Assembly (NCBI GenBank): GCA_032622095.1
Contig: CP136065.1
Span: 153,083,577 to 153,147,576 of the forward strand
DNA from: Siphonodentalium dalli
Taxonomy: Eukaryota; Mollusca; Scaphopoda; Gadilida; Siphonodentaliidae
Reading direction: 5' to 3'
DNA: 64,000 nt
Shown: piece by piece, positions 9,234 to 63,830 of the stretch
Numbering within the stretch: position 1 is the first letter of the stretch
Layout: every line of letters starts with the position of its first letter
Notes under the pieces: generated by a model
The model's input: only the letters and a program-made list of their open reading frames with translations
The model's database searches: none
What the model was told of the DNA's origin: nothing
Position numbers and translations under genes: made by a program

Positions 9234-9331
9234 GATTTGAATATGCTGTCATAGAAGAGCTGGGCTCTGTAGATGTCGCTGTTCACATCATTAGTCAGCT
9301 CTATCATGTTCTGGAAAGCCTCCTCGTCACA
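9234..9331 (-). CDS. BAIAP3: Gene B exon 10: mid-MUN domain
   Basis: The acceptor TTACATTGTAG is followed by TGTGACGAGG, and the donor reads AAATC|GTAAGC. Length is 98 bp, phase 0 in and 2 out. The 32 codons read CDEEAFQNMIELTNDVNSDI and continue with YRAQLFYDSIFK. An acidic start, then MIELTNDV and an aromatic-rich end fit the MUN segment that follows the CPFQKEL block in this family. A TT-1 element begins 26 bases upstream of the acceptor. No further exon was found between here and position 1. An extra small exon between this and exon 9 cannot be ruled out. Confidence 0.75.
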
Positions 9332-9357
9332 CTACAATGTAAAACCAATAGAATGTT

Positions 9358-9620
9358 TTAACCCATTCATGATGGGAGCAACACTGGTGCACCATTAAAT
9401 ATCCTGTGCCAGTGCATTCTCATATATATGCGAGTCTCCCACAGGGAGCCTCACATATATAACAGAAAACACTGGCTTACAAGGTCAAGGAAAATATTGT
9501 ATGGACAATACATTCTCTTATATATGCAAGGCTCCCTATGGGAGACTCGCATATATAAGAGAATATATTGGCACATGGTTTTCCCAAAATTTCAGAAAGC
9601 TCCAGTCATGGAAGGGTTAA
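9358..9620 (+). mobile_element. TT-1 MITE beside exon 10 acceptor
   Basis: It starts TTAACCCATTCATGATGGGA and ends GTCATGGAAGGGTTAA. Both palindromic modules are present, with the spacer CTTACAAGGTCAAGG. It sits in the intron 26 bases from the splice acceptor of exon 10. Confidence 0.85.
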
Positions 9621-9706
9621 GTATTAACTCGCTAGATTTTTCATACCTCAAAAACTGGGGTGAATGGTCAACAGCGGCTTTTGTTATTTTCCAAGGTGGC
9701 TAAATT

Positions 9707-9897
9707 TTAATCCTTTCATGACAGGGAGACTCGCATATGTAAGAGAATGTACTGGTTTCAAGGTCATGATAAATATTGTCAGGCCAATTTATTTTCATAT
9801 ATGTGAGGTTCCCTATGGGAGACTCGCATATATAAAAGAATGCATTGGCACAGGGTATTTGTAAAATTTCAGAAAGCTCCAGTCATGGAAGGGTTAA
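9707..9897 (+). mobile_element. TT-1 MITE, first module partly deleted
   Basis: The start TTAATCCTTTCATGACAGGG lacks the first half of module one. The second module and the right end AAGCTCCAGTCATGGAAGGG are intact. It lies 86 bp from the previous TT-1 copy in the same orientation. Confidence 0.8.
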
Positions 9898-9929
9898 ACA
9901 GGTCTTAATCCGCCCTGTGATGACTGGAC

Positions 9930-10310
9930 AAAACCTGTTGCATGTGGATATTCTTCATCACATTGTGGTGCATGAATACACCAAAGATCATTCACATAAG
10001 ATAGAAGTTGACGGAGATACAGGGATGGACATATCTTAATTACACTCTAAGAGCCATAACTTCAACAGACGTGAATGGACAAAGCATGTTACACATGGAT
10101 ATATTTCCCTTCATGCTGCCTCATGAGAATACGAAAGATCATTCATACATGACTTCCGATGACAGAGGCAGTGATCCAAAGCATTTTCTGTTCTGCAACA
10201 AAAGAATAATGGTCAAAACCATTGACATGTGAATATGACACTTCCCAAATGGTGGTTCATAAGTATACCAAAGATCATGAAATCCAACTTATGATGACTG
10301 AGATGGAGAG
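9930..10310 (+). repeat. Degenerate ~135-140 bp tandem repeat, three units
   Basis: Three units each carry a CATG(T/G)G(A/G)ATAT block, then a CATGA.AATAC.A.AGATCAT block and GATGAC/GACAGAG. They begin near 9949, 10090 and 10224. The short open frames here read through the repeat. 10311-11135 shows no gene. Confidence 0.5.
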
Positions 10311-11135
10311 CTCCAAAGTTGTTTTTTTATAATCCCAAATCTATTCCTTATTATTATTACCTTACCTTAGGAAATGATCTTGATGCAGAATGGATTCTCT
10401 CATATCGTTCAGCATTCCCTTTCTATACACCGAAAGAAAAAACAAAATAATAGTTCATATAGATCGAGAAAATCAAATCCTGGATAATAATGCAAGTCAG
10501 CACATTAACATAAAGATTTGTGCTCCCAGGAAAAATGTGATGGGGGGAAAGATAGCTTATTTTTTTTGTTTTTTTTAAATAATAAAATTAGGCCCTGCAT
10601 TTAATTTCTGGTTTCTCACACCTGATTGCATGGTCCCGAATTTCTACATGTGCAACCTTTTTATTAACTTTAGAGTTGCCAAGTGATATTGAACCAAAAT
10701 CATGGGGTTTGAAGAACATTGATTCATAAGCGATAACAATGCATATTTCAAAGACTTCTATTATTTTAAACTCCGCGGGTTGTTTTTATTTTTGTTTTAT
10801 TCATTCATACTGGTACTGATTTATGCAAAGCAATCGCTCCGAAAGCATCATCAAGGTGATGACGCCAACATTATGAGCAAACATGATTTATTCAGCCTGC
10901 CAAACCATTGAGATAATTGTGTGCAATGCATCTCGGACTGTATACATTAGACATCAAAGGACAATGAAATTATTCTCAATCTTCCTCGTCCCTCAAACGG
11001 TTTATCGAAAAATATTAAACCATTCACTCATCAATATAATTGTTGATGGCTTGCATAAATTAAGGACAACTCTAAAGAAAAGTGAATTAGCTGTGTAAAC
11101 ATAACATCACCATCATGCATAATGGTCAGATTAAT

Positions 11136-11244
11136 TACATGTAATGCCCTAAATAATCGAATCCTTAACCACAGCAGAATTATGGGTAATTTTTCAGGAT
11201 TTAGTCGGAAATATGGCCTGTTGCCATTCATCGGAAAGCTCTCA
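11136..11244 (+). mobile_element. TA-1, left half only
   Basis: It runs from TACATGTAATGCCCTAAATA to GCCATTCATCGGAAAGCTCT, the full left arm. The right arm is absent, so it is a solo arm or a broken copy. Confidence 0.8.
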
Positions 11245-11261
11245 AAATATGGTGCTGGACG

Positions 11262-11535
11262 TTAGCAGAATAAGGTCACCAGGAACAATTTATGGTTTCT
11301 CACAGGCTCAGCATCACTAAATTCACCCTCTGGGGACTTCATTCTGCTTAGGCCTCATCGTCTCTGGAAAGTATCTTTATTATCAAATTAGCAACTTTTT
11401 TAAATTTCTTTAGAAACTTTTTTAGTTTAGTTTCTCTAGATCACCAAATAGGCAGACGACACAATGCAAAATCGAGGTGCCCAATTGGTGCACATCACCA
11501 TCTGGGAACTTAGATCTATGTCTAGATCTCCCATA
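11262..11535 (+). mobile_element. F element, degenerate
   Basis: It contains AGCATCACTAAATTCACCCT, GACTTCATTCTGCTTAGGCC, GTTTAGTTTCTCTAGAT and the GGGAACTTAGATC end motif in the order found in complete F copies. The terminal repeats are lost. Confidence 0.65.
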
Positions 11536-11551
11536 GCAATTTCAGTAGGAA

Positions 11552-12720
11552 ATGAGTCAGTGATGCTGGACTGGGCAATTTTGGATGAAATACATCACTT
11601 GGAATATATCAACAAACTTTTTACATACATCTGTTTGGACTAATTGGCCATTGGCAACTGAAACTAGATGGGATATACCCCCCGTGTTTTTAAAATACTA
11701 AGATGTTTCACATGTCTGTAAACATTTAGTTAAAATAATAAAATAACAGTCCCATTGCAGGTGCACAACCCTAACCCTAATCTTAAACCTATTGACCGAA
11801 AAATGTAGGAATAAAAGCTCGGACAAATTTATGCATGTCGCGAAAATGTTCTAAGTCGAAAAAGGGGAATAACTCCACAAAAAAAAAGGTCAGACAGACA
11901 TCATAATCGCAGGTGCACAGGTTCCCATGGTACTAAATATCAGTGCCAAGATTAAAAAACATTGACCTAAAAATGTAGGAATAAAAGCTGGGACAAAATT
12001 ATGCATGTTGCAAAAATAATTCTAAGTCTAAAAAGGGGGATAACTCCACCAAAAAATGTCGGAAAGACGTCATAATCGCAGGTGCACAGGTTCCCATGGT
12101 ACTAAATATCAGTGCCAAGATTAAAAAACATTGACCTAAAAATGTAGGAATAAAAGCTGGGACAAAATTATGCATGTTGCAAAAATAATTCTAAGTCTAA
12201 AAAGGGGGATAACTCCACCAAACAATGTCGGACAGACGTCATAATCGCAGGTGCACAGGTTCCCATGGTACTAAATATCAGTGCCAAGATTAAAAAACAT
12301 TGACCTAAAAATGTAGGAATAAAAGCTGGGACAAAATTATGCATGTTGCAAAAAAATTTCTAAGTCGAAAAAGGGGGGATAACTCCCCCAAAAAAAGTCC
12401 GACAAAGTCATAATCGCAGGTGCACAGGCTCCCATGGTGGTTGATGTCTGTGCCAAGTTTCACGGAAATTGATCAAAAAACGCCTGAGAAAAACTCCGGA
12501 CAAATTTGTGTACGGAACAACGGACGACAGACGGTACGCTGGAAAAGCTGATCCCAGTATACCCCCCCCTAACTTCGTTGCGGGGGGGGGGGGGGGGGTA
12601 TAATTATAGACCCAGAGCTAGCCGATGTGAAGATGGAATCTTCGTTAGCATATGTCCCAGAAATAAAAAATAAAATGTAATATCGCATGATTTTCAAAAT
12701 TGTTTGGCCTGAGAAATGGC
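11552..12720 (+). repeat. Dispersed repeat J, split by a G element
   Basis: The left part (11552-11661) and right part (12607-12720) match 61723-62000 in order: GATGAAATACATCAC, ATATCAACAAACTTTTTA, TAATTGGCCA, then CCCAGAGCTAGC, GATGGAAT and CAGAAAT. The intervening G element is absent from the other copy, which therefore marks the empty site. Confidence 0.65.
11662..12606 (+). mobile_element. G element with 169 bp tandem core
   Basis: It starts ACTAGATGGGATATACCCCC. Exact-period units begin at 11901, 12070, 12239 and 12408 (169 bp each), each with TCATAATCGCAGGTGCACAG, TTCCCATGGTACTAAATATC and GGGGATAACTCC. A diverged unit precedes them. The tail has a GGACGACAGACGG block and a hairpin ATACCCCCCCCT-AACTTCGTTG-CGGGGGG ending GTATAATTA. 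Tandem-core elements with a hairpin tail are known in molluscs (pearl or Helentron-like). Assignment here is an inference. Confidence 0.75.
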
Positions 12721-12751
12721 AAATTGACTGAATAGCCTAACTTAATAGTGG

Positions 12752-13346
12752 GGGCGATTCCATTCATTACAGTGTGCTACAATGGGTAAATTATCCTGGG
12801 CAAAAGTGAATGGAATGATTTTTGGTGACCAGAGTAATCTAAAAATAGCACAGTTACAACTGCAAACAAAACATAATCTTTTAGTGAGGAAATTTGACAT
12901 GGCCATGTCGAACAGACGAAGACTTAAGTAAATGAGCAAAAACATCTGACATTCACAATGAAACTAACGAGAATTTTCACTTTTATCGAACAAGCAAAAT
13001 ACCTAATTTTAGAACAACCTTGACACTAAGTATCTAAAACTTTAAAAACATCATTTTAACTGTCATCCAATTGAATTATATATTTCAAAATTATATATTA
13101 TATAATCATGACAAATCAAAACAATATTCATTTAATCCAGTACATAAATATTTTCCATATGCTTTCTCAGCTGACAACCGATCTTCGTGTGAAAAGTGAC
13201 GTCACATTACAATACGCTCGCAGTTACACCACCTCGGTCATAGGTGTAGCGAGCATAGCCCGGCATATTTACGCCCGCTCATTCCATTCATTGCCCATTG
13301 TAATTTCATTAGCCGTTGTAGCCGAGCGTAATGAATGGAATCGCCC
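12752..13346. mobile_element. Inverted-repeat element with GGGCGATTCCATTCATTA ends
   Basis: The left end GGGCGATTCCATTCATTACA is matched by the complement of the right end (TAATGAATGGAATCGCCC). A second inverted pair lies just inside (GCTACAATGGG with CCCATTGTA). The interior is AT-rich with no coding frame. The target duplication is not clear. 13347-14092 shows no gene. Confidence 0.6.
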
Positions 13347-14092
13347 TGTGGTTCCCTACACAGTGATTGTTTGATTTTTAAACACAGTCCCTTTGTTCTC
13401 CATGTCATCTTATTTCTCTGAGTGGGTAGTTTATACAACATTGCAGATAAGCTCTTATCAACCGAATGCAGAGTTCCTTATCCGAATGCAGTTATAATAT
13501 TGTTCAACGAATGCATACTTATTGTCCTATGATTGCATTTTATAGTTTTGCTCTGGACAATCAGATACAGATAACACGGATATGACAACTGTATGTCCAC
13601 TTAACATTGTCAAGTCAGATAATTGCCTTGTGATCTGGCATTCGGCACAGAATGCATTTGGCTGACTAGCAGCATCGTGCGATCTGTGTCTTAATGCTCT
13701 CTCACGTGGTAATTACCTTTTGCATTACCATATTGTCGCAGGGTGAAGAGCAGTCTATGTTAAGATACACTCATATGCATACATACTGTGTCTATCGTAT
13801 TCCCACCAACTTTTCATTTATTGGAATGTTTGCATCTTCCCCAAATTACGTCACATCTCGGTACATTAATTGTTACGATTGGACATTTTTATCTTGGTGC
13901 TACTAATAGTGAGTTTTGACTGGCGCTACTGATGTGGAGTCCCGTGGTTCAGCAAACAGAAAGTCAATGACAAGTAATCAGATCCACTATTTATATGAGG
14001 GTCTGTAGTTAAATTAGACTGGGTGCTGAGCTATAGTAATACTATGGGAAATGCAAATCAATGTTAGGTGTATGCCGCTATTTCAGATGTAC

Positions 14093-14183
14093 CTTGACTA
14101 TATTGACCAGCTCCAGATGAAGTTCCTTTTGGAATGGACAGCACCTTCTGAAAACCTTCATTCCTGAGATATATGACAAGCAC
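14093..14183 (-). CDS. BAIAP3: Gene B exon 9: MUN domain, CPFQKELHLEL block
   Basis: The acceptor TTTAATTTTGCAG|GTGC and donor GTCAAG|GTACAT give 91 bp, phase 2 in and 0 out. Translation includes CLSYISGMKVFRRCCPFQKE then LHLELVNIVK. The CPFQKELHLE motif is typical of the MUN domain in BAIAP3. A closer AG (TATATCTCAG) would put the motif out of frame, so the upstream acceptor was chosen. The intron to exon 8 is ~2.3 kb and the intron to exon 10 ~4.8 kb. Confidence 0.88.
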
Positions 14184-14413
14184 CTGCAAAATTAAACATG
14201 ATGGAACAATCAAAAAAGAAAAAGCAAAAAAAATGAGCAGGACTGTTATTCAGCGTTTACATGTCCTACACCCAAACTTGGATATATTACACAAAGATAA
14301 ACAAAGTGGGATAACTCTAGCATTGATCATCCAGAAAACAGCAGTGAATCTCTTTTTAGAAAGATGTTCTGCATGATGGTAGAAATCTGTACATGTTTTT
14401 TATTTTTAGATCA

Positions 14414-15203
14414 AACTAGAGGTGTGACTGTCCCAATGGGACTACGGATACCCCCCTTTTTTAAAAATACTAAGATGTTTGACATGTCAGTAAACATTTA
14501 GTTAAAATAATAAAATAACAGTTCCCATTGCAGGTGTACAACCATAACCCTAATCTTAAACCTATTGACCGAAAATTGTAGGAATAAAAGCTTGGACAAA
14601 ATTATGTATGTTGCGAAAAAAATTCTAAGTCGAAAATTGGGAATAACTCCACACAAAAAATGTCGGACAGACGTCATAATTGCAGGTGCACAGGTTCCCA
14701 TGGTACTAAATATCAGTGCCAAGATTAAAAAACATTGACCGAAAAATGTAGGAATAAAAGCTCGGACAAAATTATGCATGTTGCAAAAAAAGTTTCTAAG
14801 TTGAAAAAGGGGGATAACTCCACCAAAAAATGTCGGACAGATGTCATAATCGCAGATGCACAAGTTCCAATGGTACTAAATATCTGTGCCACGTTTTAAA
14901 AAAATTGACCAAAAAATGTAGGAATAAAAGCTCGGACAAAAGTATACATGCTGCGAATATTTTCTAAGTCGAAAAAGGGGGGATAACTCCAAAAAAAAAG
15001 TCCGACAGACGTCATAATCGCAGGTGCACAGGTTCCCATGGTGGTTGATGTCTGTGCCAAGTTTCACGGAAATTGATCAAAAAACGACTGAGAAAAACTC
15101 CGGACAAATTTGTGTCCACGGACGGCCGGACGACGGACGGACGACGGACGGACAAGCTGACTCCAGTATACCCCCCCCTAACTTCGTTGCGGGGGGTATA
15201 ATA
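14414..15203 (+). mobile_element. G element with ~169 bp tandem core
   Basis: It starts AACTAGAGGTGTGACTGTCC. Units beginning TCATAAT(C/T)GCAG are at 14674, 14844 and 15012 (170 and 168 bp apart). The tail has GACGGACGGACGACGG and the hairpin ACCCCCCCCT-AACTTCGTTG-CGGGGGG, ending GTATAATAA. Open frames on both strands here read through the repeat. 15204-16304 shows no gene. Confidence 0.8.
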
Positions 15204-16304
15204 ACTCATCATTGAGATGTTAGCCAGGTTCAGCCACACTAATGTGTAACTTGTAACGTGTGCTACCATGGTATTGCTATAGAGATGCACATGGCAGAAA
15301 CAGTCAGATGATTTTACAGCGCCAAACTACACGTTTATAGATATTGGCCAACATCTAGGGAACTTGCATTGTAAATAACAGTCGGGTACAGAGAAGATGA
15401 GACAACTCTATTGGATTTACTGATCCCACATTACTAGTCCCATGATGAATGATACATGCATGTTGATTTCAATTCTGTTCAACCATGACAGACGAGTGCG
15501 ACCAGCGGTAGGCTTAATTGGCTTCAATCTATATTAAAATCTTTCCGTGCAGGCAAATCTCTGCTTTCAAGTTTTGCATGCTACACGTTGGACCCAAAAC
15601 TTCTAAGTGTTTTAACCATGTGCTTGTAGGCAAAATTATCATGTGAGTCAGCTGACCTTCACTGGCAACTTTACAAGTTACGGTACATGTAAGTGTTACT
15701 GAACCTGGCTATTGTTACATGCTGTAGAAAAATACAATGCCTTATTTTTTCTTTCTGAGGTGATGATTTCTATCACTTCAATAATTCTTCCAAGAAAGAT
15801 ATAAGTTTTTATTTCACAACCATTGGCATGAGGCACATGTATTCAACAGAATCACAGCCATTGATTATATAGTGGTGTATACCAGATGTTGAATACAAGC
15901 CGGAACTACCTGGTGTTCATGTTCTTACAAAGATCAGCTTCTGGTGATGCCCCAAAAATGACTGATTTTTCATCACATTTATCGTAGCTTTTGTATCAAT
16001 GGTGGCCACAGCCAAGGTACCAAATACAAGGGTGTGGAATAAATACAGAGCACCACTTGCATCATGATCTCAAATCTTCAATCAAACTTGTTACAGACAG
16101 CACATAATAACATTTCACTCTTGAAATATATCCATATTTCACTCGTGAAGTATTTCCATGTGCTGTATGCAACTCATTCAATAAAACATTATAAATTAGC
16201 ATGCACATTGTGTTCTGTCTACGTATAATAGTATCTATCCGCATAATCTTCCGGAGCAAGTAATTTACTAGAAATAATTTGAGGCTTGAAAATAAATTAT
16301 GACT

Positions 16305-16518
16305 TTAACCCTTACATGACGGGAGCCATGCCGGTGTAGCATTACATATCATGTGCCAGTGCACACAAGGTCTTACAAGGTCAAGGTAAATATTGTCAGG
16401 CCAATTTATTCTCGTATATATGTAAGGCTCACTTTGACGACTCGCAAATATAAGAGAATGTAATATTGGCACAGGGTTTTCGCAAAATTTCAGGAAGCTC
16501 CAGTCATGAAAGGGTTAA
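16305..16518 (+). mobile_element. TT-1 MITE beside exon 8 donor
   Basis: It runs from TTAACCCTTACATGACGGGA to CAGTCATGAAAGGGTTAA. The first module is shortened and the second is complete. Its right TTAA lies only 11 intronic bases from the donor of exon 8. Confidence 0.85.
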
Positions 16519-16529
16519 AGAATCTTTAC

Positions 16530-16654
16530 CTGAGCATATATTCCAGTTTCAGTAATGCTTTCTTATTACTGGCTGGAAATATGTCCTGAATTCGTCTGAG
16601 TAGATTTAAACAGTAGTCAATGAACTTCGTGAAAGATTCTGCAAGTAGCTCTTC
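16530..16654 (-). CDS. BAIAP3: Gene B exon 8: MUN domain start
   Basis: The acceptor TCCAATCCAG|GAAG and donor CTCAG|GTAAAG give 125 bp, phase 0 in and 2 out. It encodes EELLAESFTKFIDYCLNLLR, then RIQDIFPASNKKALLKLEYM and LR. The pattern E-LLAESF-F--Y-L-LLR-I-D-FP matches the helical MUN start in this family. The ~12.7 kb intron upstream holds most of the window's transposons. Confidence 0.92.
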
Positions 16655-17104
16655 CTGGATTGGAAAATGAAAGTGTCAATGAAACTTGGAAAGGGGATGT
16701 CATACATTATAGTCAATGGAGTGATAAGGAATGCGGAAAGTTTAAATGTTTAAGTAATATTAGATGTCAACATGAAGAGCCCATATGAAATATGAGATCA
16801 ATTGGATAAAAACAGTTGGCTGTGCTGGTCATGCCGACGTATTTAGTGATGCAAAGAGTAAAATCCAAGTAAGTAATATAAATATGCAATGTTACAGTTA
16901 CAATCAAAGAATAACATAATAGCTAATGATGATTAATGCAGTTTTCATCTTCCATTGCAACAAATGGAATTTATTGTCTCCTCAAATAGATATTATACAG
17001 ATTCCACATGACCCAGTCAAGGAAATACGCCAATTTGATAAATTCAACTTATCATAGATCATCTATCTAAACTATATGACAGTGAGTCTCATATTACTAT
17101 TCAA

Positions 17105-17140
17105 GGAGCTAAGTAGCTCAATGGCTAAAGTATTCAGCTT
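17105..17140 (+). repeat. Possible tRNA-like SINE head cut by TA-1
   Basis: AAGTAGCTCAATGGCTAAAG resembles a tRNA A-box. The sequence is interrupted a few bases later by the TA-1 half element, so no B-box can be checked. Confidence 0.3.
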
Positions 17141-17144
17141 GTTG

Positions 17145-17252
17145 TATAGTAATACCCTAAATAATGGACTACTTAACCACAGTAGAATTATGGGTAATTT
17201 TTCAGGATTTAGTCAGAAATATGGCTTGTTGCCATTCATCGGAAAGCTCTCA
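17145..17252 (+). mobile_element. TA-1, left half only
   Basis: It runs from TATAGTAATACCCTAAATAA to CATTCATCGGAAAGCTCT. The right arm is absent, as at 11136 and 48962. Confidence 0.8.
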
Positions 17253-17668
17253 CTTGGTAGAAGCTTTTCCGGACAGGTGTCCTAGATTTATATCCATTAT
17301 TTTATAACCTGAATCTATATAAAACTTCGTAGGAAAAGATAAAGTTATCTTTAAGAAGTAATCGGTTTTCCGTTCGGAAATCTTATCTACAATACATGGA
17401 TTCATGGTATGTCATTGACTGTAATTTGAGACACACAAAAAATAGCAATACACACAGAGATGTGGATCCAGGCATGCTGCCTTGTAGCTGACAGATCAAT
17501 ATGATATCACCATATACACCCCACTTCTTGCCCATTCATGTAGAAATATCAGATGATGTTTTTGATGTCACCCCAGTCAAAAATGAAAACATAAAACTCT
17601 AAACACACATTTATATTTATCTATTAGAGTTGTGACTTGAAGATAAGGAGAGTAATTTGGCACAGTGA

Positions 17669-17869
17669 TTAACCATTTCATGACGGGAGCTGCGACAGTG
17701 CAACATTAAAGACCATGTGCCAGTGCATTCTCTTATATATGAGTCTCCAATAGGCCAATGTTATTCACTTATGTGAGGCGCTCTCTATGGGAGACTCGCA
17801 TATATAAGAGAATGCTTTGCCACAGGGTTATCTTAAAATTTCAAGAAGCTCCAGTCACAGAATGGTTAA
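17669..17869 (+). mobile_element. TT-1 MITE, inner deletion
   Basis: It starts TTAACCATTTCATGACGGGA and ends CCAGTCACAGAATGGTTAA. The first module is reduced and the spacer is lost. The right module with CATATATAAGAGAATG is intact. Confidence 0.8.
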
Positions 17870-18387
17870 TAATAAATCTTTCCTTAATTATTGAAGAGAA
17901 GTGCTGATATACTTTCAACATCAATACTAAAAGTAGTGTGGCATAAATACATTCTTCGGTGAAACATGCCCATTTAAGAGGGAACATCTGACTTATTTCA
18001 AAGCATGCTGTGCAGTGTTCACGCTGTCGGTAGCCAAATTAGCCAATGGCTAATCTTTTTCGAATTTGGCTAATAAAAATTTCATTTGGCTAAACTTTTG
18101 GCTAAACTTTTTTTTTTACCCCAAATGGAGACTGAAAGCATGGAGTCAGAAAGCTAATTCATAAAAGCGCTCAATAGATCGACATTCAAGACGAAGTTAG
18201 GTGACGAAAGTATTTCATTAATTTCGTACTTATGAAATATCGTTCCGTAACAGCAAAAGGTAAGCTCTAACATTTAGTGTACAGTAAACATATTTTTATT
18301 TCCAAATCTAACATAAATTTTGGCAAGTGGGTTTCCAATTCTGTGATGTGAACGATCTAGTCCGAAAATATCGAAAGTGGGAATATA

Positions 18388-18606
18388 TTGCCGACTGTAC
18401 AAAGGGAAACCCGATCGCGGACAGTACAAAGGGAAACCCGATCGACAACTCTATCAACCAAGCGATCACACAGTGATATGCAATCATTTTTAGTTTTCAC
18501 AAGACGGACATTCAAAGACGCATGGACATTAAACCGACCGTGGTTGAATCATGACAATGTGAAGAAAGCAATATTTTGTAAAGTGTGCATTGACGCTGGT
18601 ATATAA
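18388..18606 (+). pseudogene. hAT transposase N-terminal remnant (zinc-finger part)
   Basis: The 72-codon frame carries RRTFKDAWTLNRPWLNHDN followed by VKKAIFCKVCIDAG. The order W, PWL, then F/M-C-x-x-C is the start of the TTF/BED-like zinc finger seen in hAT transposases and their host-derived relatives. The frame stops right after the CxxC. No second half of the finger, no catalytic DDE region and no dimerisation domain follow. An imperfect repeat of VQRETRS occurs at its start. This is a decayed fragment. Confidence 0.7.
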
Positions 18607-19065
18607 GCAATTTGTTCGTAACAGGCTGTTTTAATCTGGAGAAAAATTACGTCATTCTGCACGAAACAGCAAAAGGTTATTATTTTACATTTAATATGAT
18701 TTAATCCCCTAATCCCCCATTGTCTGTCTGGTCACTCACGGGACTCCCGCACAATGCATGTTTATGATGACATTGTATTTATGTCGGTCGAGGTTTATGA
18801 GCACCATGTGTAAGACAATAGCTTAATCAGCCAAATGTGAATCACGACAGATATTTTGTGGCTAGTGGTCATCAATACCGATACGGACAAAATAATATGC
18901 ATGCCTTTATGACAGATTGTAATTTGATATAGGCGTAACAATATTAAGTTATTAGTTTCCAGATGTCACTTAGATATTTTCGCAAGGATAAATATTTAAT
19001 GATTTAACAAAAGATATTGATATAAAACAAACAAATACTGACATTAAGAATGACAATCCCGGGTA

Positions 19066-19094
<29 letters not shown>
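19066..19094. repeat. Poly-C run, 29 bases
   Basis: An uninterrupted C run inside the hAT-like element. Its length may not be reliable in the assembly. Confidence 0.8.
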
Positions 19095-19097
<3 letters not shown>

Positions 19098-20267: not shown

Positions 20268-20384
20268 TGTTCATCCAGTCAACTCAAAGTTGGGGTTCAG
20301 CAGGGGATAATCAGCTGATCAGGAACTATTTTGTCACATACTATCTATAGAATTAACAAATAAATTTTAATGCTAGAAAGTGTG

Positions 20385-52314: not shown

Positions 52315-52328
52315 TATTACTATATGTA

Positions 52329-53389: not shown

Positions 53390-53925
53390 AGCAGTGAGAT
53401 TACTGAAAAATAAACAAGGCATTTCTGTGTCTGTATCGGTAGTGCAAGAGGGCAATGTTGCTGAGTTTACATACATTGTATATAGTATGAATGGTTGAAT
53501 AGACAATTACGCCTATACATGTATATACATATATTTACATTCGGCGAACCGCTATCAAGACCATTGCTCACAATGCCAAGCGACAAATCATGGTAACATA
53601 GTCATTGTTGAACTTGTATAAGAAATACTAATATTCCAGGTCGCCACTAAATGATGCATGTAAATACTAGTTTATTGTCTACACGATGTAGATCCGCCAC
53701 GATGGTGTTAATACACACATATATCCAGCAATGACAAAGAACCGAAACTGTAATCAGCTCAAAGATATACGAAAATATCACAGAAATATTAAGAATATAT
53801 GTTTGTCAGTTTTTAATTCGCGCAGCTAGGTGCACGAATTTAAAGTGCGCGAATTCAAAACTGAGCAAAAAATAATACTGCGCGAATTTAAATACGAGTA
53901 AGGTATTATATTATTTGTAGGGATG

Positions 53926-54104
53926 TTCAGAAATAAATGAGCAGACATCTAACAGGTGAAAAGATAATACAGGTGCAGGAGGATTCCTATTCATTGGTGG
54001 GAAATGTTGAGATGATAACAACTGTGGTAGTTTGTTTAACGTATTATCTGAACACTTCCCTAGGGAACTACTCGTTTATGAATATTTAGTAAAGGAAGGG
54101 TTAA
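53926..54104 (-). mobile_element. TT-3 MITE, reverse, left part lost
   Basis: It reads the complement of TT-3 from GTAGGGATGTTCAGAAATAA to GTAAAGGAAGGGTTAA. Confidence 0.7.
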
Positions 54105-54611
54105 AATCTATTGGCATAAATAAATAAAATATCAATTAAAGGTGCAAAATTTACATATATTATTATAATATTGTATATTATATATCATTAAAAAGAGGAA
54201 GCTCCAAAACAGATATATCATGCAGTCGAAAAAACATTATATAAATATGATATATTGTTGTCAAAGAACCAAGGTTTGTCTGGAGAGGTTATGTACTTGT
54301 TTTGCTGGTTAGGGGAATAATTAACTGGTTTACTCTGGCACTGAATGAATGAATTAGAGCCATGGATGAGTGCAAAATAGACTCATGTGCTCTATGAACA
54401 ATGTTCATAATATGGTAATTATAATGAAAATTAGTTTATGGCTCGAGCCATGTATTCATTTTCGTTATAATTATCAGGTTGTTATTCATGGTTCTTTGCG
54501 AGTTTATTTGTCTCATTCTTGACTCATAGTAATTCTTTTATTGGATATTTTCTGTTGAGTATAATAAGAGATGGTCTCATAAATGGCCAGATTTAGTGTA
54601 CAGTCCCCCTT

Positions 54612-54916
54612 TTAACATCTTCACTACTGGAGGACGTCATGTGCTGGGGCATTGCCGTTCTGGCCATTTTCCAGTGGAAAAATATAATGGGAATGTCCCG
54701 AAAATCACAAAACCGACTCCGTAGAAAGGCTATTATCATTTACAATCCTAGAACAGCACAAGCTGTTTGAAACTTTGAGATACAATGGTTCCTATGCACT
54801 AATTTCTGAGTTCCAGTTAGGAATAATGAGCGACTGCTTAATAGCTCCGCACTCAGTACGGACGTGTAGCACACAACGTTACATTTTACGTCCGTACTCA
54901 GTAACAAAGAGGTTAA
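54612..54916. mobile_element. TTAA-flanked inverted-repeat element
   Basis: The left end TTAACATCTTCACTACTGGA matches the complement of the right end, TACTCAGTAACAAAGAGGTT-AA, at most positions. An inner hairpin ACTCAGTACGGACGTGT / TACGTCCGTACTCAGTA lies near the right end. Confidence 0.55.
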
Positions 54917-55151
54917 AGAGATAAAGAGCTCAGTCAGGGTTCAGATGCTTGAATAGTTTAAATTTTTATCTAGCATCATTTCTCTTCTCTCCATTATATG
55001 ACACAATCCGGACTTAAAAATTACTGATAATGAAGCTAATCTTGCAATTTTTTTAATATGATTATGTCATTACAATATTTTCCATTGTTTTTATTTCTGA
55101 TTGTAAAACAATATGCCACATCAATCCTGTGGTAAAATTGACTTGGAATTT

Positions 55152-55425
55152 TTAACCCTTTCTTTACAAAATGGACTCTCCCATTCAGTTATAAATGTGT
55201 ATATTTGAAATTGTCTATTTTTAATTTGGAGGGGTGTTCAGGATATGTAATCAGACGACAGGCAGAAAAATAAATTAAAAAAACAAACGTATTCATATTC
55301 ATTGGTGGAAATGTTCAGATAATAAGTTCAACAAACAACCTATGGACGTTTGTTGAACTTATAATTTATCTGAACAATTCCTGAGGGAACTACTTGCCAA
55401 TGAGTATTTATTAACAAAGGGTTAA
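55152..55425 (-). mobile_element. TT-3 MITE, reverse orientation
   Basis: It starts TTAACCCTTTCTTTACAAAA and ends TATTAACAAAGGGTTAA. Full TT-3 order in reverse. It ends 52 bp from exon 6 of gene A. Confidence 0.85.
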
Positions 55426-55476
55426 GTTTCATGTTTTGATTCAGTTTTTGTTTTATCATCTAGGGATATAACTTAC

Positions 55477-55600
55477 AATTCGAATGATTCCTCAAATACT
55501 GGGTTAAGTGTTTTCTTGATGATTTTTGTTTGTTGAGTGGTGACTGTTGGAAACAAATGTTCTGGGCACAACTGTATTGTGACATAAGGATCACTGAGTC
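55477..55600 (-). CDS. BAIAP3: Gene A exon 6: C2B core
   Basis: The acceptor TTTATTCCAG|GACTC and donor GAATT|GTAAGT give 124 bp, phase 1 in and 2 out. It encodes LSDPYVTIQLCPEHLFPTVT, then TQQTKIIKKTLNPVFEESFE. LSDP-V---L-PEH-FP----Q-T---KKTLNP-F-E-FEF is the C2B signature of BAIAP3/Munc13-4. Intron phases 1 and 2 equal those around exon 2 of gene B in C2A. The next exon, with C2B loop 3, was not found. Confidence 0.95.
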
Positions 55601-55764
55601 CTGGAATAAATAAGTTAGTTGTATATTGCAATGTGTAGAAAGAGGAAATGACTAACATTAGGCCATGCAAAGTCAAGATTTGAAAAGCATGCGAGGGTGT
55701 GCTATTATTATTTCTGGGGCACACACCAACGAACCATTCCATCACTGCATCGGTTAACTCTGGA

Positions 55765-56112
55765 TTTAAAGAGATGTGAAACACTCCGATAGGTGATCAA
55801 ATAGAAATGGAGAATAATCTTGTTCAAAGAATTTATTTTTACAAATATTATGTCCAAATTGACAACAAACACCGTCATTCTTATATATTAATTAATTGCA
55901 GTGACTCTTGATGGCAAAATCATTTTCATTAATTTATCGCCGATTGATGCGTCCCGAATCGAGTAGTAAATATTTACAATGAGTGTAGTTCCGATGATGG
56001 TTTCTATGGAGTGGTACGGTCGTAAAGGTTTGTATTAATTGATTTTCATGTAACAAAGGAAGTGACATTTTTGAAGTTAGCACCCTATTAGTGATCGGTG
56101 ATGTCGCTTTAA
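55765..56112 (-). repeat. Dispersed repeat E, copy 3, reversed
   Basis: The complement aligns with 37690-38056 and 49530-49905 across most of its length. It lies in the intron between exons 5 and 6 of gene A. Confidence 0.65.
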
Positions 56113-56137
56113 TTAGTTCGAATTCAACACAATGCTG

Positions 56138-56438
56138 CCCATTGGGTGAATTTAGTGATTCTATCCCGCAAAGTCGGCTAGCATAACAAAATTCACCTTC
56201 TGGGGACCTCATTCTGCTTAGGCCTCCTTTTATGGGAAGTATCTATAGTCTCAAATTAAGTTAACATTATTTTTAGTTACTTTTGCCCTTCTGGGAACTT
56301 TTTATATCCCCTAATTTGCAGACAATAAAATGCATAATAGAGGTGACCAATGGGTGAACATCACCAACTTGAACTGGGGAACTTTCAATCTGACCCTAGG
56401 TCTCCAATAGCAGTTGAGGCCTAAGTAGAATGAAACAT
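56138..56438. mobile_element. F element, both tips lost
   Basis: It carries GGTGAATTTAGTGATTCTAT, CACCTTCTGGGGACCTCATT, CTATAGTCTCAAATTAA and GGGGAACTTTCAATCTGA in F order. A TA-1 half abuts it. Confidence 0.75.
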
Positions 56439-56546
56439 GAGAGCTTTCCAATGAATGGCAACAAGCCATATTTCCAACTAAATCCTGAAAAATTACCCAT
56501 TATTCTGCTGTGGTTAAGGAGTCGATTATTTAGAACATTACCTGTA
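56439..56546 (-). mobile_element. TA-1, one half only
   Basis: The right arm runs from GAGAGCTTTCCAATGAATGG to TTATTTAGAACATTACCTGT-A. The other arm is absent. Confidence 0.8.
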
Positions 56547-56707
56547 TCTTCACAAATAAACACCTGCATGCCACCAGATACATGACTTGAAAATAATTTT
56601 GCCAGTTTTGAAATCAGGATGTGCATTTTCAAAATGCTTGAATTTAAAACAGAGCAAAACAAATAATACAGTCCGAATCTAAATATGAGTAAGGTAAACA
56701 AACATAC

Positions 56708-56746
56708 CATTTGCATCGAGCGGTATCACATCTTTAGCATCAATAA
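56708..56746 (-). CDS. BAIAP3: Gene A exon 5: C2B loop 1, 39 bp
   Basis: The acceptor TATTGTTTCAG|TTATTG and donor AAATG|GTATGT bound 39 bp, phase 1 on both sides. With the G from exon 4 it reads VIDAKDVIPLDAN-G. V--AKD-IPLDANG just before LSDPY (exon 6) is a C2 loop 1 with its first calcium-binding aspartate. It is too short for a frame search, but splice sites and frame agree. Confidence 0.92.
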
Positions 56747-56856
56747 CTGAAACAATAAATGAAACTGTCAATGACACTGTAGCGCAACTTTGAGAAGGAA
56801 TAACGTCAAACATTACAGTCAAAGGAGCAATAAGGAATGAGGAAAATTTAAATGTT

Positions 56857-56960
56857 TAACCCTTTCAGTGCCAATTCCGATTTTTGTATTAACCCATATT
56901 TCCTTGATCATTTTTCAAATTTATTAATTATAATAATGTGATACATTGATGGAAAGAGCT
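56857..56960 (+). repeat. TT-4-like solo end, copy 2
   Basis: TTAACCCTTTCAGTGCCAAT and the following ~100 bp match 38985-39100. No opposite end was found. Confidence 0.6.
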
Positions 56961-56962
56961 CT

Positions 56963-58420
56963 AAGCTCTAATATATACAGCATCGACAGGCTATTAGTGA
57001 AGGTAATATCATGGTGCTGATCAAATACAAGATATATACAGTGTCGACAGGCTATATGTGTAGGTTATATCATGGTGGTGACGTATACAAGATATATACA
57101 GCGTCTACAGGCTATTAGTGTAGGCTATACCATGGTGGTGATCGTGTATGAGATAATATACCGCGTTGACAGGCTATTAGTGAAGGTTATATCATGGTGG
57201 TGATTGTATATGAGATATATACAGCATTGACAGGCTATAAGTGTAGGCTATACCATGGTGGTGATCGTGTATGAGATATATACAGTGTTGACAGGCTATT
57301 AGTGAAGGTTATATCATGGTGGTGGTGATCATATACAAGATATATACAGGGTCGACAGGCTATAAGTGCAGGTTATACCATGGTGTTGATCAGGGACCAG
57401 CCGAGAGGGCGACGTGGGCGACTTCTTCGCCCTAGCGCCGTCCGCTTCGCCTTATTTTTGCAGTCGGGCGAAGTTCAAGTCGCCCTGAAAATTCCAAAGT
57501 TGACTGACGAAAATCAGCAAAATTCCCCAAATAATTTATGATAATTTACAACTGTCAACAGTGATTGCACACAATACTCCACTATCAGGGTGTTGTAAAA
57601 CAATTAACACCTGTATTGCTCCAATCTGGAAGCATGTTGACAACGGAGTCTGATTACTGGCAGCTGTGAAAACATCGTCGGGCCTCAAGTGTTAATCTGG
57701 TTGTTGTGATTTTTAGATTACCGTGATTACCACACCTTACAATGAAGATTACAACTCACAGCTCTCACAGTGTGTCAGTTCATCACTCCCTCTATGGAGT
57801 TTGGTTAAAGAAATTTTAAAACAAATTCATTTGTGAAGCATATTAAAATTTTCAAACGGGATTACTAATAGGGCGCAGTGAAAGTGTTCATGATTTCGTT
57901 TCGTTTCGGTTTGATAAATATTGTTGGCATTTTTAAAAACCCGAAAAATATGAAATAAAATCTTGTCATTCTCCCACAATTACGATATAAAATGCTGCTA
58001 TCCTCTCACAATTATGTTTGGGTATTATTAATAGTTATTAGGGTCATGAAGTGAACATAAAGACTCCATATTTCAACCATTGTTTCATAAGTTTAATTGA
58101 CATATTACATCTCTCCTATTTTCGTTCTATTATAAGCGACTCCTGTCGTAGTACTGTTCAATTTAAGTTTTGTAGACTCACTTCGCCCTATAGAACGGCC
58201 ACTTCGCCTTATTTTTATAGTAGGGCGAAGTCATTTCGCCCTGAAAATATGGTCTAGGCTGGTCCCTGGTGTTGATCGTATATGAGATATATACAGTGTT
58301 GACAGGCTATAAGTGTAATTTATACCATGGTGTTGATCATATACAAGATATATACTGCGTCGACAGGCTATAAGTGTAGGTTATATCATGATGGTGATCG
58401 TATATGATCTTTGACGGGTG
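56963..58420 (+). repeat. 61 bp minisatellite, split by a hAT-like element
   Basis: Units carry GATATATACAG, CGACAGGCTAT, AAGTGTAGGTTATA and CCATGGTGGTGATC. About seven units fill 56963-57390, and about two and a half follow at 58269-58420. Spacing of GACAGG is 60-62 bp. The two blocks were one array before the insertion. Confidence 0.88.
57391..58268. mobile_element. hAT-like element, 878 bp, 8 bp target duplication
   Basis: Ends CAGGGACCAGCC and GGCTGGTCCCTG are inverted repeats (one mismatch-free 12 bp block). GTGTTGAT flanks both sides (57383-57390 and 58269-58276). Subterminal CTTCGCC and GGGCGAAGT repeats occur near both ends. The only longer frame (68 codons at 58051) shows no transposase motif. 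Confidence 0.92.
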
Positions 58421-58950
58421 GAAATTTCGAGTAAATGATCATCACCATGATTTAACCTACTTATAGCACCAAATTTAATCACAATTGCACATGGTTCATC
58501 GTAATTAAACATGGGTGAATAATAACGCTGCCTAGGCAATGATAGTAAATCTCTTCGGTCACTTCACTTGATATAAGGGACACAGAAGTCCATTGTGGAT
58601 TCATTGTTTTTATGGTGTCCCAGTAGCCGGCTTGCTCACACTATTCTATTTTTACTTATAGTAACACAAATGATTTTGCACAACCGGATTGACACTTGAA
58701 CACATGGCCAATCTGAAACTATATTGTATACTACATGTTGCATAACGTATATTAGACTTGTAAATGAATTTTAATGGTCTTACAAGTGACCAATCATAGC
58801 TATCCACTTTATTTAAAAAGTTTGTCCGTTTAGTTTGGCAAGTCTATAACTTCCTATTCCGTTTTCATCGGAGATAAACAATTAAAACTTTTCACATTTC
58901 ACCAAAATGTCTTTGTAAAGGACAGATTTATAGAAATAAATACATGGAAT

Positions 58951-59643
58951 AAGGCCAAAAAAAAAGTGTTTTGGTTCTCGGGCAATTTTTTTCTTCAAAT
59001 CAATGAGGGAGGGAGGGTTTTATTTTTATTTTTTATTTTATTCTGTGCATAGTAAGCATGGACAAAGATACCTTCCTCTGTCTAGTAATAACCAGAAAGG
59101 TAGAGGGAACTGTTATGCATATAAACTCATTTAGTCTTATATAAAAATGACATTGTACTACCAGTGTATGACTGGGATTACCTAACAATATATAATGCCC
59201 CTGACATTAACTACTGTTATTGTTGTCTAAATACTGATACCTCCCCATTCTAATATGTGATCCTGAATTTAGTCCTGCGCCTTTCATTTGTATAAAGTTA
59301 CAATTAGTGTAAGTTGTTCACAATGACTAATTGTGAGAAGAGCATGAGGATCAGCTAATCATTTTCTTAATTGTAGTCATCTACTTCATGTTGTAAGCCT
59401 GCAAGTCACTTTTTAACACATTACATGTTAGAGCTCAATACACACTAAAGTTCAACACATATCTGCTATGGACATGTTGATAAAATCAACAAAACAAAAC
59501 AATTTTTTTTTTTTTTTTTCAAATTTATTTTTTCGGAAGTTTTTTTGTCATAACATCAGGCATTGCAATAAAAAGGCCTAATGCGGCCCTTTTTATTCAA
59601 TGCGGCGGGGCCTGAGAACCAAAACTTCTTTTTTGTTTGGCCT
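58951..59643. mobile_element. H-type element, 693 bp
   Basis: AAGGCCAAAAAAAAAGTGTT and TTGGTTCTCGGGC on the left are matched by CCTGAGAACCAAAACTTCTT and TTTTGTTTGGCCT on the right. The interior is AT-rich and non-coding. 58421-58950 shows no gene. Confidence 0.75.
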
Positions 59644-59776
59644 AAAGGAATGCTGTAAATTTTAATATCTTAGACCAATTTCCAAAATTTGCGACAAATA
59701 GAAATGTTACAAAATCAGACACACACACATGTAAATTGTGCGAGAATTCATGCCAATGTTCGATATAATATAACAA

Positions 59777-59835
59777 GTGCAATGCCAAGCATGGCAGCTT
59801 ATATGCACCCAGTGCTCAGTTTAGAGAGTGGGCAA
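59777..59835 (+). repeat. Short dispersed repeat shared with 50689-50755
   Basis: The same GCCAAGCATGGCA, CTCAGTTTAGA, GTGGGCAAT order as the other copy. It lies 45 bp from exon 4 of gene A. Confidence 0.5.
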
Positions 59836-59879
59836 TACTAAATATTTGTATGGATGGAATTATTCTTTTATTTTCTTAC

Positions 59880-59961
59880 CTTCAACCATTAACGTTGCAG
59901 TGTCCGTGCGATAGAAGGTCCGTACATTCAGGAATCCATATTCCTGGCTGGCAAATTCTTT
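59880..59961 (-). CDS. BAIAP3: Gene A exon 4: MUN end and first C2B strand
   Basis: The acceptor AACTTTTGCAG|AAAG and donor GTTGAAG|GTAAGA give 82 bp, phase 0 in and 1 out. It encodes KEFASQEYGFLNVRTFYRTD and TATLMVE. YG-L-V---Y----L-VE is the first strand pair of C2B in this family. Confidence 0.9.
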
Positions 59962-60424
59962 CTGCAAAAGTTAACAATCAATACATTAGGCAGGTTCTGA
60001 TCCTCGGGAGTGAACTTAAAACTTCAAAATTATAATGTTCTAGATATGTAGCAGAGAAACTGATTATAGCTGACATAACTATTATAAACCTATATATAGT
60101 CTGTTGACAACAACTATTCAAGCCGTTTTGTACTGAATGACATAAGATGGTACTTATCAGAATACGCTACAAAATAAGAAGCATGAGAAAACTGTTGCCG
60201 CATGAAGTTTAGGAATATTTCACTATTGGTTAGTTTTCCTGCTCAAAAATAAAATTCTAGAACATTTTGATTTTTTAAGATTTAAGTTTGAATATAAGAG
60301 ATCTAAACCTATCTAAAACTATCAAGATGCCGCCACTGTGATGTCATTATTTACTGAATAAATGGACGAAGTGCCCCACACATGAAATTGTGAGTTAAGA
60401 TTAAATAGTCTTGAAATGTTTTTT

Positions 60425-60625
60425 TGCTGAACGACCCAAAATGACTCGGTCCCATCTACATGTCAATGTCAACACCCATGTAAAATTTCATAATGATTCA
60501 ACCAAAGGTTCGACCTGTAGCCAGTGCTAAAGGAAATTGTTGATGGATGCATGCACACACACATGGACGACGGATACCAACCCACGACAATGGCTCAATC
60601 TTTTCAACAAAAAAAAGTTGAGCTA
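60425..60625 (+). repeat. G-related repeat, single unit
   Basis: It carries CATGTAAAATTTCATAATGA, GCTAAAGGAAATTGTTG, ACATGGACGACGGATACCAA and the TTGAGCTAAA end also seen at 61700. The open frame of 65 codons here is read-through. Confidence 0.5.
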
Positions 60626-60739
60626 AAAAAGAATATGGAATTGGTTGTGACTCATCCCAAGCATTTTATTAGTAGTCTGTCTTGGTACACATTCATTCTG
60701 AACTTGATTAGTGATATTTAATTATTATATGTATTGTAC

Positions 60740-60823
60740 CTGTTCTAAAACTTTCTCCTCAAAAAATCCTTCTATTAACCGCTCTGTATCCTCCTTGTAC
60801 AGCTGCAGTAGATGTCTCAGCTC
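60740..60823 (-). CDS. BAIAP3: Gene A exon 3: MUN C-terminal helix
   Basis: The acceptor CTATTCTAG|GAGCTG and donor GAACAG|GTACAA give 84 bp, 28 codons, phase 0 both sides. It encodes ELRHLLQLYKEDTERLIEGF and FEEKVLEQ. L--LL-LY---T--LIE-F---L-EQ is the last MUN helix before C2B. Confidence 0.93.
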
Positions 60824-61132
60824 CTAGAATAGCAAAACAGTTGTGAGAAATACAGGGAGGGCCACCAAAGGCAATATCCCGTTTCTTGGGCCCGCAAGCA
60901 TGGGCCTGATTTAACTTTTTTATATGTGTTTGATGTCGTTAAAAATTATAATCGGTATGAAATAATTGCAGGATGTTTTTATACAAACTTGCGCAGAACT
61001 GAGACCAGTTTCCCCCGATTCAAATTTTTCTGATTAATTACTGTTACTGGTAACCATGTGTTAAATATCTGATGCATTGCATTTGAAAACTCAATAAATG
61101 AAAGTTGTAGCGCAACTGGGAGAGGGAATAAT

Positions 61133-61715
61133 GTCTGTATGGTGTGCCAAAGGATTTAGTCATACAAAGAGTAAAATCCAAGATGGCTTCTGGTGGCATG
61201 TTTTTCAATGAAATTCAGACAAATTTCATGGCTCCTATCTAGTGGGCACTCAAAACACCCATATGATGTTTGGTGGCGATCAGATGAGTGATGTGGTCTG
61301 TAGGGTGTGCCAATGGATTTAGTAATGCAGAGTAAAATCCAAGATGACTGCCAGCAGCCATGTTTTTCATCGAAAATCAAGCAAATAGGATAGCTACCAT
61401 CTAGAGGTGATCCTAAACTAAAACATGCCTATAAATTTTCAAAACAATTCACCAATAAATACAGCCTGCAGGGTGTGCAAATGAATCAAATTTGAAATCG
61501 GAGATAGCTGCTGGCAACCATGTTTATAACACATATCGTTCCCATCTAGAGGTCATCCATGAGTTCCATATGAAGTTTTTGGTGAAAATCGGATGAGATG
61601 TGACCTGCAGGATGTGCTAAAAGAAATTGTTGTGGGACGGACGTCTGCCCTGACGGATGATGGACACAAACCCATGGCAATAGCTCAAACTTGACTTCGT
61701 CAAGTTGAGCTAAAT
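61133..61715 (+). repeat. G-related tandem repeat
   Basis: Units with AGAGTAAAATCCAAGATGGC and GAGTAAAATCCAAGATGACT are ~165 bp apart, and two more diverged units follow. The tail is GGGACGGACGTCTGCCCTGA, then GGACACAAACCCATGGCAAT and TTGAGCTAAA. A similar phrase occurs at 16855. Confidence 0.6.
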
Positions 61716-61722
61716 ATGTGTA

Positions 61723-62000
61723 AATGATACTTTATGATACTTTATTGGGTGACTCTTGACGAAATATATCACATGGAATGGATTGAGCGATTTGTGACTA
61801 AATCATATGGAATCTATCAACTAACTTTTTATGGAAATCTGTTTTGGAAATAATGGCCACAGGCAACAATATTAAAAACCCAGAGCTAGCTGATGCAGAG
61901 GTGGAATATTGCTTCATAGGCGTGTGCTCCAGAAATGAAAAATTAATCTAAAACAGCGCGCTCGCATGCTTTTCAAAATATTTTGGTGTTTGTAGCATGG
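61723..62000 (+). repeat. Dispersed repeat J, uninterrupted copy
   Basis: It aligns with 11552-11661 plus 12607-12720. The junction GGCAACAATATTAAAAACCC marks where the other copy carries a G element. 62001-62581 shows no gene. Confidence 0.6.
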
Positions 62001-62581
62001 TCGTGGTACACGAAATGGAATAAATTGGTAAAGAAGCGATTTCGGTGTCAAAAAACACAGAAGAGTCTGCAGTATAACATATCTAAAATCCGCTAAAATC
62101 TGCTTTGGGGAAACTTTATTATCCAAGATGGCATCCGAACATGAATGTCTATATTACAATAGTTATCGATATAAGTCATAATACAATATATTGTGACATA
62201 GGAATTCCGCAGTTATGCCATATTGTGTGAAATTAGAGTAACGAAGCAATAGACACGGACAGAAAATAATACAATTGCGAACATGAAATGGCTGTCAAAA
62301 TGGCCACAACCCCAAGCAACATATTGGATAACCACATAGGAGTGAAAATAGGTATTGGTAATATACAAGTTCTATAGCAGTAATTTTTTAAAGGTTTGGT
62401 GTTGTAGATATAAAAATAAATGATGATCGGTCACATTCGTGAGACTTCTCTGAGTACATATATCTATGCTTCTAGAAAAGGTCACAGAATCAATACATCC
62501 CAATTAAATCTGATTTAACTGTTTAATTACATATATATCACACGATGTAAGATAAATAGTACCGATAAAACTGCATTATTT

Positions 62582-62949
62582 TTCAGTTTCTGGGTGTCCA
62601 AAAGTCCAGATTTAACCATTGTATGAGACCAAATTTCATTGAGATCCGATAACCCATGGTTTGAGATATATGAGGGGACGGACAGAAATCCAACATTTTC
62701 AAATAAATCAAGAGGGATAACTCTTGAACGGAAAATGTGAACAATATCAATGAACCCACTTTTGAAAGCCCTCCTGATGATAAACCAGCATACAAAAATT
62801 CATTGAGATCAGATCACCCATGGTTGAGATATATGAGTGGACACATGGATGCACGGACAGACGGCAGGCATTCTCGTCAAGATTTTAAGGCCTGGACAGA
62901 CGCATGTAATCCAGTATACCCCCCATATTTTGGGATGGGGTTATAATTA
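62582..62949 (+). mobile_element. G-type element, short
   Basis: Two units with ATTGAGATC(C/A)GAT(A/C)ACCCATGG, (G/T)TTGAGATATATGAG and GGACGGACAGA are followed by AGTATACCCCCCATATTTTG-GGATGGGGTTATAATTA. The last part is the family's C/G hairpin tail. It ends 37 bp from exon 2 of gene A. Confidence 0.7.
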
Positions 62950-62985
62950 TAGTATCTAGATTGAAGCTATAGCTATATCACTTAC

Positions 62986-63099
62986 AGAATATTGTCTTGA
63001 TTTGATTCGATGTATTGTCAATCCCTTATCATTGGCAAAGAAAAATTCGACTAGTAAACCAATGGCATCATACATCCTCTGGTAGAATACTGGTGCTCT
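62986..63099 (-). CDS. BAIAP3: Gene A exon 2: MUN domain
   Basis: The acceptor CCTTTATTGCAG|AGAGC and donor TATTCT|GTAAGT give 114 bp, 38 codons, phase 0 both sides. It encodes RAPVFYQRMYDAIGLLVEFF, then FANDKGLTIHRIKSRQYS. P-F-QR---A---L--FF-A---GL is a late MUN motif. Splice sites are near ideal. Confidence 0.94.
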
Positions 63100-63683
63100 C
63101 TGCAATAAAGGAAATTGAGGTGTTTCAGGCAGTGTTCGACACACAAAATGAGAATAAGTGTAGAAACGATAAATCATATAGAAATAACTATAGGCCATTC
63201 TCATTGTGACGGTTAAAACTTGATACATGTCAGCATTACCACAAAATTATATTCATATTTCAGACCAAGTCTATAAGTGGAAATAGAAAGTAGTTTAATT
63301 TGTATGACAATGGATATTGTTTATAGGGGCACAAGCTGAAATGAAGAATTGGACAGGCTTCATTGTGAGCCTGACTATGCAAATAAGTGATTATTTATAC
63401 ATGAAAGGCTGCAATTTAGTAATTTAGTCTTTTCTTTGGAGGAGATAAACACATTTTTATGTAATTCCAACAATAAAAAATAATGGGGAAGATAGAATCT
63501 ATCATAATAGTCTTTTCTTTCCTTGAGTGGAAAGAATCCCTTTTACAGGGTTTAGCCATTCTGATATCTAAATTCATAAGCGTACCCAGCCATTAAAGAA
63601 ATACAGGGTCAAATGGAATGCAAAACAGACGTTTTCAACGAAGATTCTCATATTCCAGATGCCAGAATGAAATTCAATAATAC

Positions 63684-63830
63684 CATTTCTTCCTTCTCCA
63701 GAACATCTCGGAATTCTTCAAGCGTTTCCAACCATATAGATTCTAAAATTCTATCAAAGTTCGTTTTCAGCAGATTCTTGTTCAATGTAAGTAGGTTGCT
63801 ATCCAGGTATTCCATCAAATCACCTATTGC
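63684..63830 (-). CDS. BAIAP3: Gene A exon 1 (first in window): MUN domain
   Basis: The acceptor TTTATCTGCAG|GCAATAG and donor GAAATG|GTATTA give 147 bp, 49 codons, phase 0 both sides. It encodes AIGDLMEYLDSNLLTLNKNL, then LKTNFDRILESIWLETLEEF and RDVLEKEEM. LM-YLD-NL--L---L---NF-R-L--IW is the second conserved block of the MUN domain. Earlier exons must lie right of 64000; 63831-64000 is intron. Confidence 0.94.

Follow-up and report, generated by a model that had tools for sequence, protein, structure and literature searches.

A false duplication is the most probable origin, at roughly 95%, of a puzzling arrangement in a 64,000-nucleotide stretch of the scaphopod Siphonodentalium dalli genome (hereafter the window; C5:153083577-153147576, contig CP136065.1 of GenBank assembly GCA_032622095.1), where the two halves of a predicted BAIAP3/Munc13-4-type gene lie in reversed order across an assembly gap. 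The contig to the right of that gap would be an unpurged haplotig, the other allele of the 3' part of the gene, set into the junction between two contigs that overlap each other and carry the gene in its normal order. Positions below are counted along the window (C5 position = 153083576 + value), with values below 1 lying to its left; with 70 kb of flanking sequence per side, 204 kb were inspected in total.

Proteins of this family have the domain order C2A, MUN, C2B. The window contains a single run of N, 100 bases long (53290-53389), and a second run of 100 N lies to the right of the window at 111626-111725; we refer to the pieces that these gaps delimit, from left to right, as A, B, and C (Table 1). 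On the minus strand, exons for the C-terminal part of MUN and for C2B (63830 to 55477, right of the first gap) precede those for C2A and early MUN (49339 to 9234, left of it). This reversal across the 100 N had been proposed in an earlier sequence-only reading of the window, and it is borne out by the exon frames and by Pfam, in which single-exon frames at 38707-38994 and 55476-55796 both matched C2 (E = 1.5e-5 and 2.4e-7, respectively); the frame at 62959-63246 matched no Pfam family.

Piece A by itself, read on the minus strand, carries these domains in the family order. Its C2A exons run from 49339 to 31916 and are followed by early MUN exons to 9234, late MUN and subsequent exons from -10571 to -45921 (MUN exons to -32339), C2B exons between -49374 and -50682, and one further C2B exon at -53598 to -53396. 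The rest of MUN and C2B, suggested as something to look for left of position 1, is indeed present there in normal order, from -10571 to -53598. A domain-permuted protein was considered and rejected, as the order on A is normal.

Piece B, at 58,236 bp from gap to gap, carries late MUN and only the first part of C2B. Insertions and a minisatellite aside, B constitutes a second copy of A from -53408 to 6620, nearly identical and colinear. When only same-strand matches near the diagonal with at least 250 bp and at least 93% identity were kept (12 of 121 matches), the resulting 12 main blocks aligned B in colinear order with A from -52797 to 6620. Eleven of the 12 blocks, largely noncoding, are 96.9 to 99.3% identical, and the twelfth, which includes part of a 36-bp minisatellite, is 94.4% identical. 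The 93% identity filter leaves 94601-102111, mostly minisatellite, outside the scored blocks; past the minisatellite, 104950-111625 matches A 2 to 6620 at 97.9%. Copies of the late MUN and C2B exons are spaced 95 to 106 kb apart. The homology reaches both edges of B with no unmatched sequence on either side: the first 51 bases equal A -53408 to -53358 (100%) and are followed by a stretch of ~560 bp present on A only, and the last base pairs with A 6620. The left edge falls 13 bp into the C2B exon that lies on A at -53598 to -53396, and it is because B stops there that the end of C2B is absent beside the gap, an absence already pointed out from the window alone. Between 6621 and 48634, A has no near-identical counterpart in B or in the inspected part of C; the four matches of at least 300 bp to these sequences are 83 to 87% identical.

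The two pieces flanking B overlap each other. Over 4,662 alignment columns, of which 30 are mismatches and 8 are gaps, the terminal 4,655 bp of A (48635-53289) and the initial 4,661 bp of C (111726-116386) are 99.2% identical, and the match begins at the first base of C and finishes at the last base of A. This dovetail shows that C follows A. Further along C, beyond the second gap, lies the exon that precedes C2A (120170-120337), which had likewise been recorded as missing beside the first gap; given this exon and the dovetail, the gene extends from C into A by way of the overlap. Of the C2A exons, for which a look right of 64000 had been suggested, the first has a copy on C at 112366-112432, and no second copy of the others was found. 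Overall, the homology ends at a gap edge in four cases out of four. The locus displays three features expected of a haplotypic false duplication, namely, a contained colinear contig, edges at gaps, and flanking neighbors that overlap.

Copy numbers were obtained from genome-wide searches that cover 2.23 Gb in 9 contigs and score the best candidates, so a weak extra copy may remain. The N-terminal piece gave eight protein matches, in which six exons occur once and the first C2A exon twice (on A and on C). Single genomic places were also found for the C2A exon at 38707-38994, for the region 29300-29500 with an early MUN exon, and for the pre-C2A exon. Late MUN and C2B, by comparison, produced 22 protein matches. 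Seven exons account for 14 of these, each being matched once on A and once on B; another match is the further C2B exon, present on A only; and the remaining seven fall at other C2-like places with 33 to 45% identity. As DNA, 62900-63300, which contains an eighth exon shared by A and B, has two full matches, on A and B, and 38 others, ~50 bp long, that hit a dispersed repeat (of 382 candidates, 40 were scored); 49200-49600 has two full matches, on A and C, plus 38 partial ones to a dispersed repeat (40 of 4,795 candidates scored). These searches included eight of the 11 exons compared between A and B, with the exons at 59880, 60740, and 68229 outside them.

Divergence between A and B was counted over 11 colinear blocks (35,201 columns, excluding 94602-111625, the large insertions, and bases 1-49 of B). 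All 11 compared exons remain open in both pieces, and nine of them are identical in DNA; altogether 2 of 1,099 exonic sites differ, one silent and one a Ser/Thr replacement, compared with 298 of the remaining 34,102 columns (Fisher p = 0.007). The aligned blocks contain 61 small indel events. Five large transposon-like insertions are cleanly present on one piece and absent from the other, with short target-site repeats and inverted ends at their junctions, as judged by eye; this check was made on the five larger insertions, and smaller ones, such as 295 bp on A at -19742 to -19447, fall outside it. Such divergence, together with clean insertions, looks like that between two alleles of a heterozygous animal.

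In the reading that we favor, one gene on the minus strand would span the overlapping contigs C and A in the order pre-C2A, C2A, MUN, C2B, and B would be the other allele of its 3' part, having escaped haplotig purging. A and B would then be alleles of one diploid individual, and the scaffolder may have inserted B at the A-C junction since B belongs to the same locus, probably on the basis of Hi-C. A real, recent 58-kb tandem partial duplication, leaving an additional 5'-truncated copy that has late MUN and C2B but lacks C2A, would likewise put a near-identical copy in direct orientation beside the original; the 11 compared exons are open in both copies, as it would allow, and a young copy could show equal divergence. 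We nevertheless consider such an event very unlikely. It would not be expected to end at gap edges four times in four; B breaks off 13 bp into an exon; C begins with a repeat of the end of A, which duplicating the 3' half would not predict; and a sequenced junction is absent on both sides of B. The lower divergence of exons than of the remaining sequence is also unlike a freely decaying truncated copy, although young copies decay little anyway.

Both explanations offered by the sequence-only reading are more doubtful still. Two old tandem paralogues would account for late MUN and C2B exons occurring in two copies at their spacing of 95 to 106 kb, yet the identity of 96.9 to 99.3% in 11 of the 12 main blocks extends through introns and mainly noncoding sequence, 9 of 11 exons are identical in DNA, and the early MUN and C2A exons searched for turned up once each, the one exception being the first C2A exon, which lies where A and C overlap; we see next to no chance that this explanation is correct. 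The other proposal, that one gene was split because its two contigs were put together in the wrong order at 53290-53389, was right on two counts, in that a single such gene was found genome-wide at the sensitivity used and the gap does join nonneighboring sequences. Its halves are not swapped, however: A already has late MUN and C2B (-10571 to -53598), so that B is a redundant 3' copy rather than the missing half, and exchanging the pieces would not mend the locus because the redundant copy would stay. A simple misordering is accordingly exceedingly improbable.

Several points weigh against the false duplication that we prefer. Allelism is deduced from sequence rather than measured by read depth or Hi-C, and a very recent 58-kb duplication assembled just to its edges could look alike, provided that all four ends fell at gaps. 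The exon contrast consists of 11 exons and two differences, with exon ends taken from splice consensus or by eye rather than from transcripts. Identity drops to 94.4% in the minisatellite block, and 94601-102111, mostly minisatellite, is unscored. Finally, the overlap of A and C, unmerged at 99.2%, leaves the haplotype of C unspecified.

The gene model was assembled from 254 splice-bounded candidate exons, of which the better-scoring ones were inspected and chosen by eye through residues typical of the family; exon ends were called from splice consensus and by eye. One short exon between 38708 and 33775, several MUN exons, and the last exon were left undelimited. Seven exons, from 49339 down to 16530, join in phase into a piece of 346 amino acids. 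Three spliced pieces taken in order along A matched C2 (E = 7.5e-13), MUN (E = 1.9e-7), and C2 (E = 1.1e-22) in Pfam, so that the clade's order of C2, MUN, and C2 occurs within one gene on A; the first piece, with its 346 amino acids and the early MUN exons, had no Pfam match to MUN. Residues 72-343 of this piece align to residues 182-457 of UNC13D, the best solved relative (9la9), at E = 4.2e-40, versus E = 2.1e-9 for UNC13A, which places the gene nearer to UNC13D than to UNC13A-type proteins. The pre-C2A exon aligns to UNC13D residues 82-132 (E = 4.6e-7), ahead of the stretch aligned with C2A.

By its domain order and best solved relative, the gene is a predicted member of the BAIAP3/UNC13D (Munc13-4) clade. 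The name BAIAP3 was absent among the 40 solved sequences listed as matches, and the gene is presumably BAIAP3 rather than UNC13D, going by its C2A residues. When the genome was searched with the Pfam MUN profile, all 12 matches fell on C1 and C3, and this locus yielded none; five of the 12 read like CAPS/CADPS (on C1) and Unc13 (on C3) and do not help to tell BAIAP3 from UNC13D. The order C2A-MUN-C2B on A is like that of the BAIAP3 and UNC13D (Munc13-4) exocytosis proteins, and no unusual feature was found in the gene, which is itself ordinary.

Table 1. Sequence pieces, gaps, exons, and large insertions at the locus, in window coordinates
Feature	Position	Strand	Remarks
Piece A, part inside window	1..53289	-	Extends left to at least -69999
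Gap A/B	53290..53389		100 N
Piece B, part inside window	53390..64000	-	Whole piece 53390-111625, 58,236 bp gap to gap
Gap B/C	111626..111725		100 N
Piece C	Begins 111726		Right of second gap
Pre-C2A exon on C	120170..120337	-	FELLYIEVLYTVKHKIG...
First C2A exon	49273..49339	-	PPIIILNTTIVEAKGLEAKDAD; copy on C 112366-112432
C2A exon	38708..38963	-	GFSDPYCMLGI...; single genomic copy found
C2A exon	33610..33775	-	Splice-bounded frame
C2A end/linker exon	31916..32119	-	Splice-bounded frame
Early MUN exon	30779..30882	-	Splice-bounded frame
Early MUN exon	29357..29474	-	Single genomic copy found
MUN exon	16530..16654	-	EELLAESFTKFIDYCLNLLRR...
MUN exon	9234..9331	-	Holds ...DEEAFQNMIELTNDVNSDIYRAQLFYDSIFK... 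and DEEAFQNMIELTND...; ends by eye from letters
Late MUN exon on B	63684..63830	-	AIGDLMEYLDSNLLTLNKNLLK..., starts at 63830 as AIGDLMEYLDSN...; 3' end by eye, uncertain
Late MUN exon on B	62986..63099	-	RAPVFYQRMYDAIGLLVEFF...; A counterpart -32339..-32226 identical; 3' end uncertain
Exon on B	60740..60823	-	A counterpart -45062..-44979, identical
Exon on B	59880..59961	-	A counterpart -45921..-45840, one silent difference
First C2B exon on B	56708..56787	-	A counterpart -49453..-49374, identical
C2B exon on B	55477..55600	-	A counterpart -50682..-50559, one substitution (Ser/Thr)
Insertions on B only	64232..65382; 80476..84998
Insertions on A only	-44564..-34094; -22780..-21845; -8368..-7777

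Repeats of several kinds occur at the locus. The A-only insertion at -44564 to -34094 (~10.5 kb, absent from B) is flanked by a short target-site duplication and has inverted ends, as seen by eye, and includes ~7.3 kb of 353-bp tandem units (93 to 98% matches); this is a satellite array, lodged in an apparent DNA transposon, that is polymorphic between the copies. The 4.5-kb B-only insertion at 80476-84998 is made of direct-repeat units of ~1.94 kb (99.2% alike); by eye, its ends are likewise inverted and its target site shows a short duplication. Between MUN exons, the 36-bp minisatellite reaches ~75 copies on A (-2704 to -27) and more than 200 on B (~96679-104921). A ~140-bp dispersed repeat resembling a short interspersed nuclear element occupies ~49369-49513, immediately upstream of the first C2A exon, and the 38 further scored matches there, among 4,795 first-look candidates, are mostly to this repeat and range from C1 to C8. 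An apparent upstream exon at 49474-49548 overlaps the dispersed repeat and was discounted.

Passages of PMC9516828 describe heterotype false duplications, or unpurged haplotigs, in genome assemblies, and passages of PMC7203741 describe how haplotype divergence yields two copies instead of one, plus breaks in contiguity. The locus resembles the cases in those passages in that two haplotype versions would stand as adjacent separate sequences, with contig breaks and a false partial gain of a gene. It differs from them in that the haplotig here would sit between contigs still overlapping by 4.66 kb, and in that the case is known from the assembled sequence alone. The result at this locus would be one gene cut in such a way that it reads as domain reordering. 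As a case of a haplotig lodged between overlapping contigs, the locus is a clear one, recognizable from sequence alone by homology that ends at gap edges. Gene predictors run on this assembly can be expected to call a broken gene here, a spurious truncated paralogue, or a protein with reordered domains.

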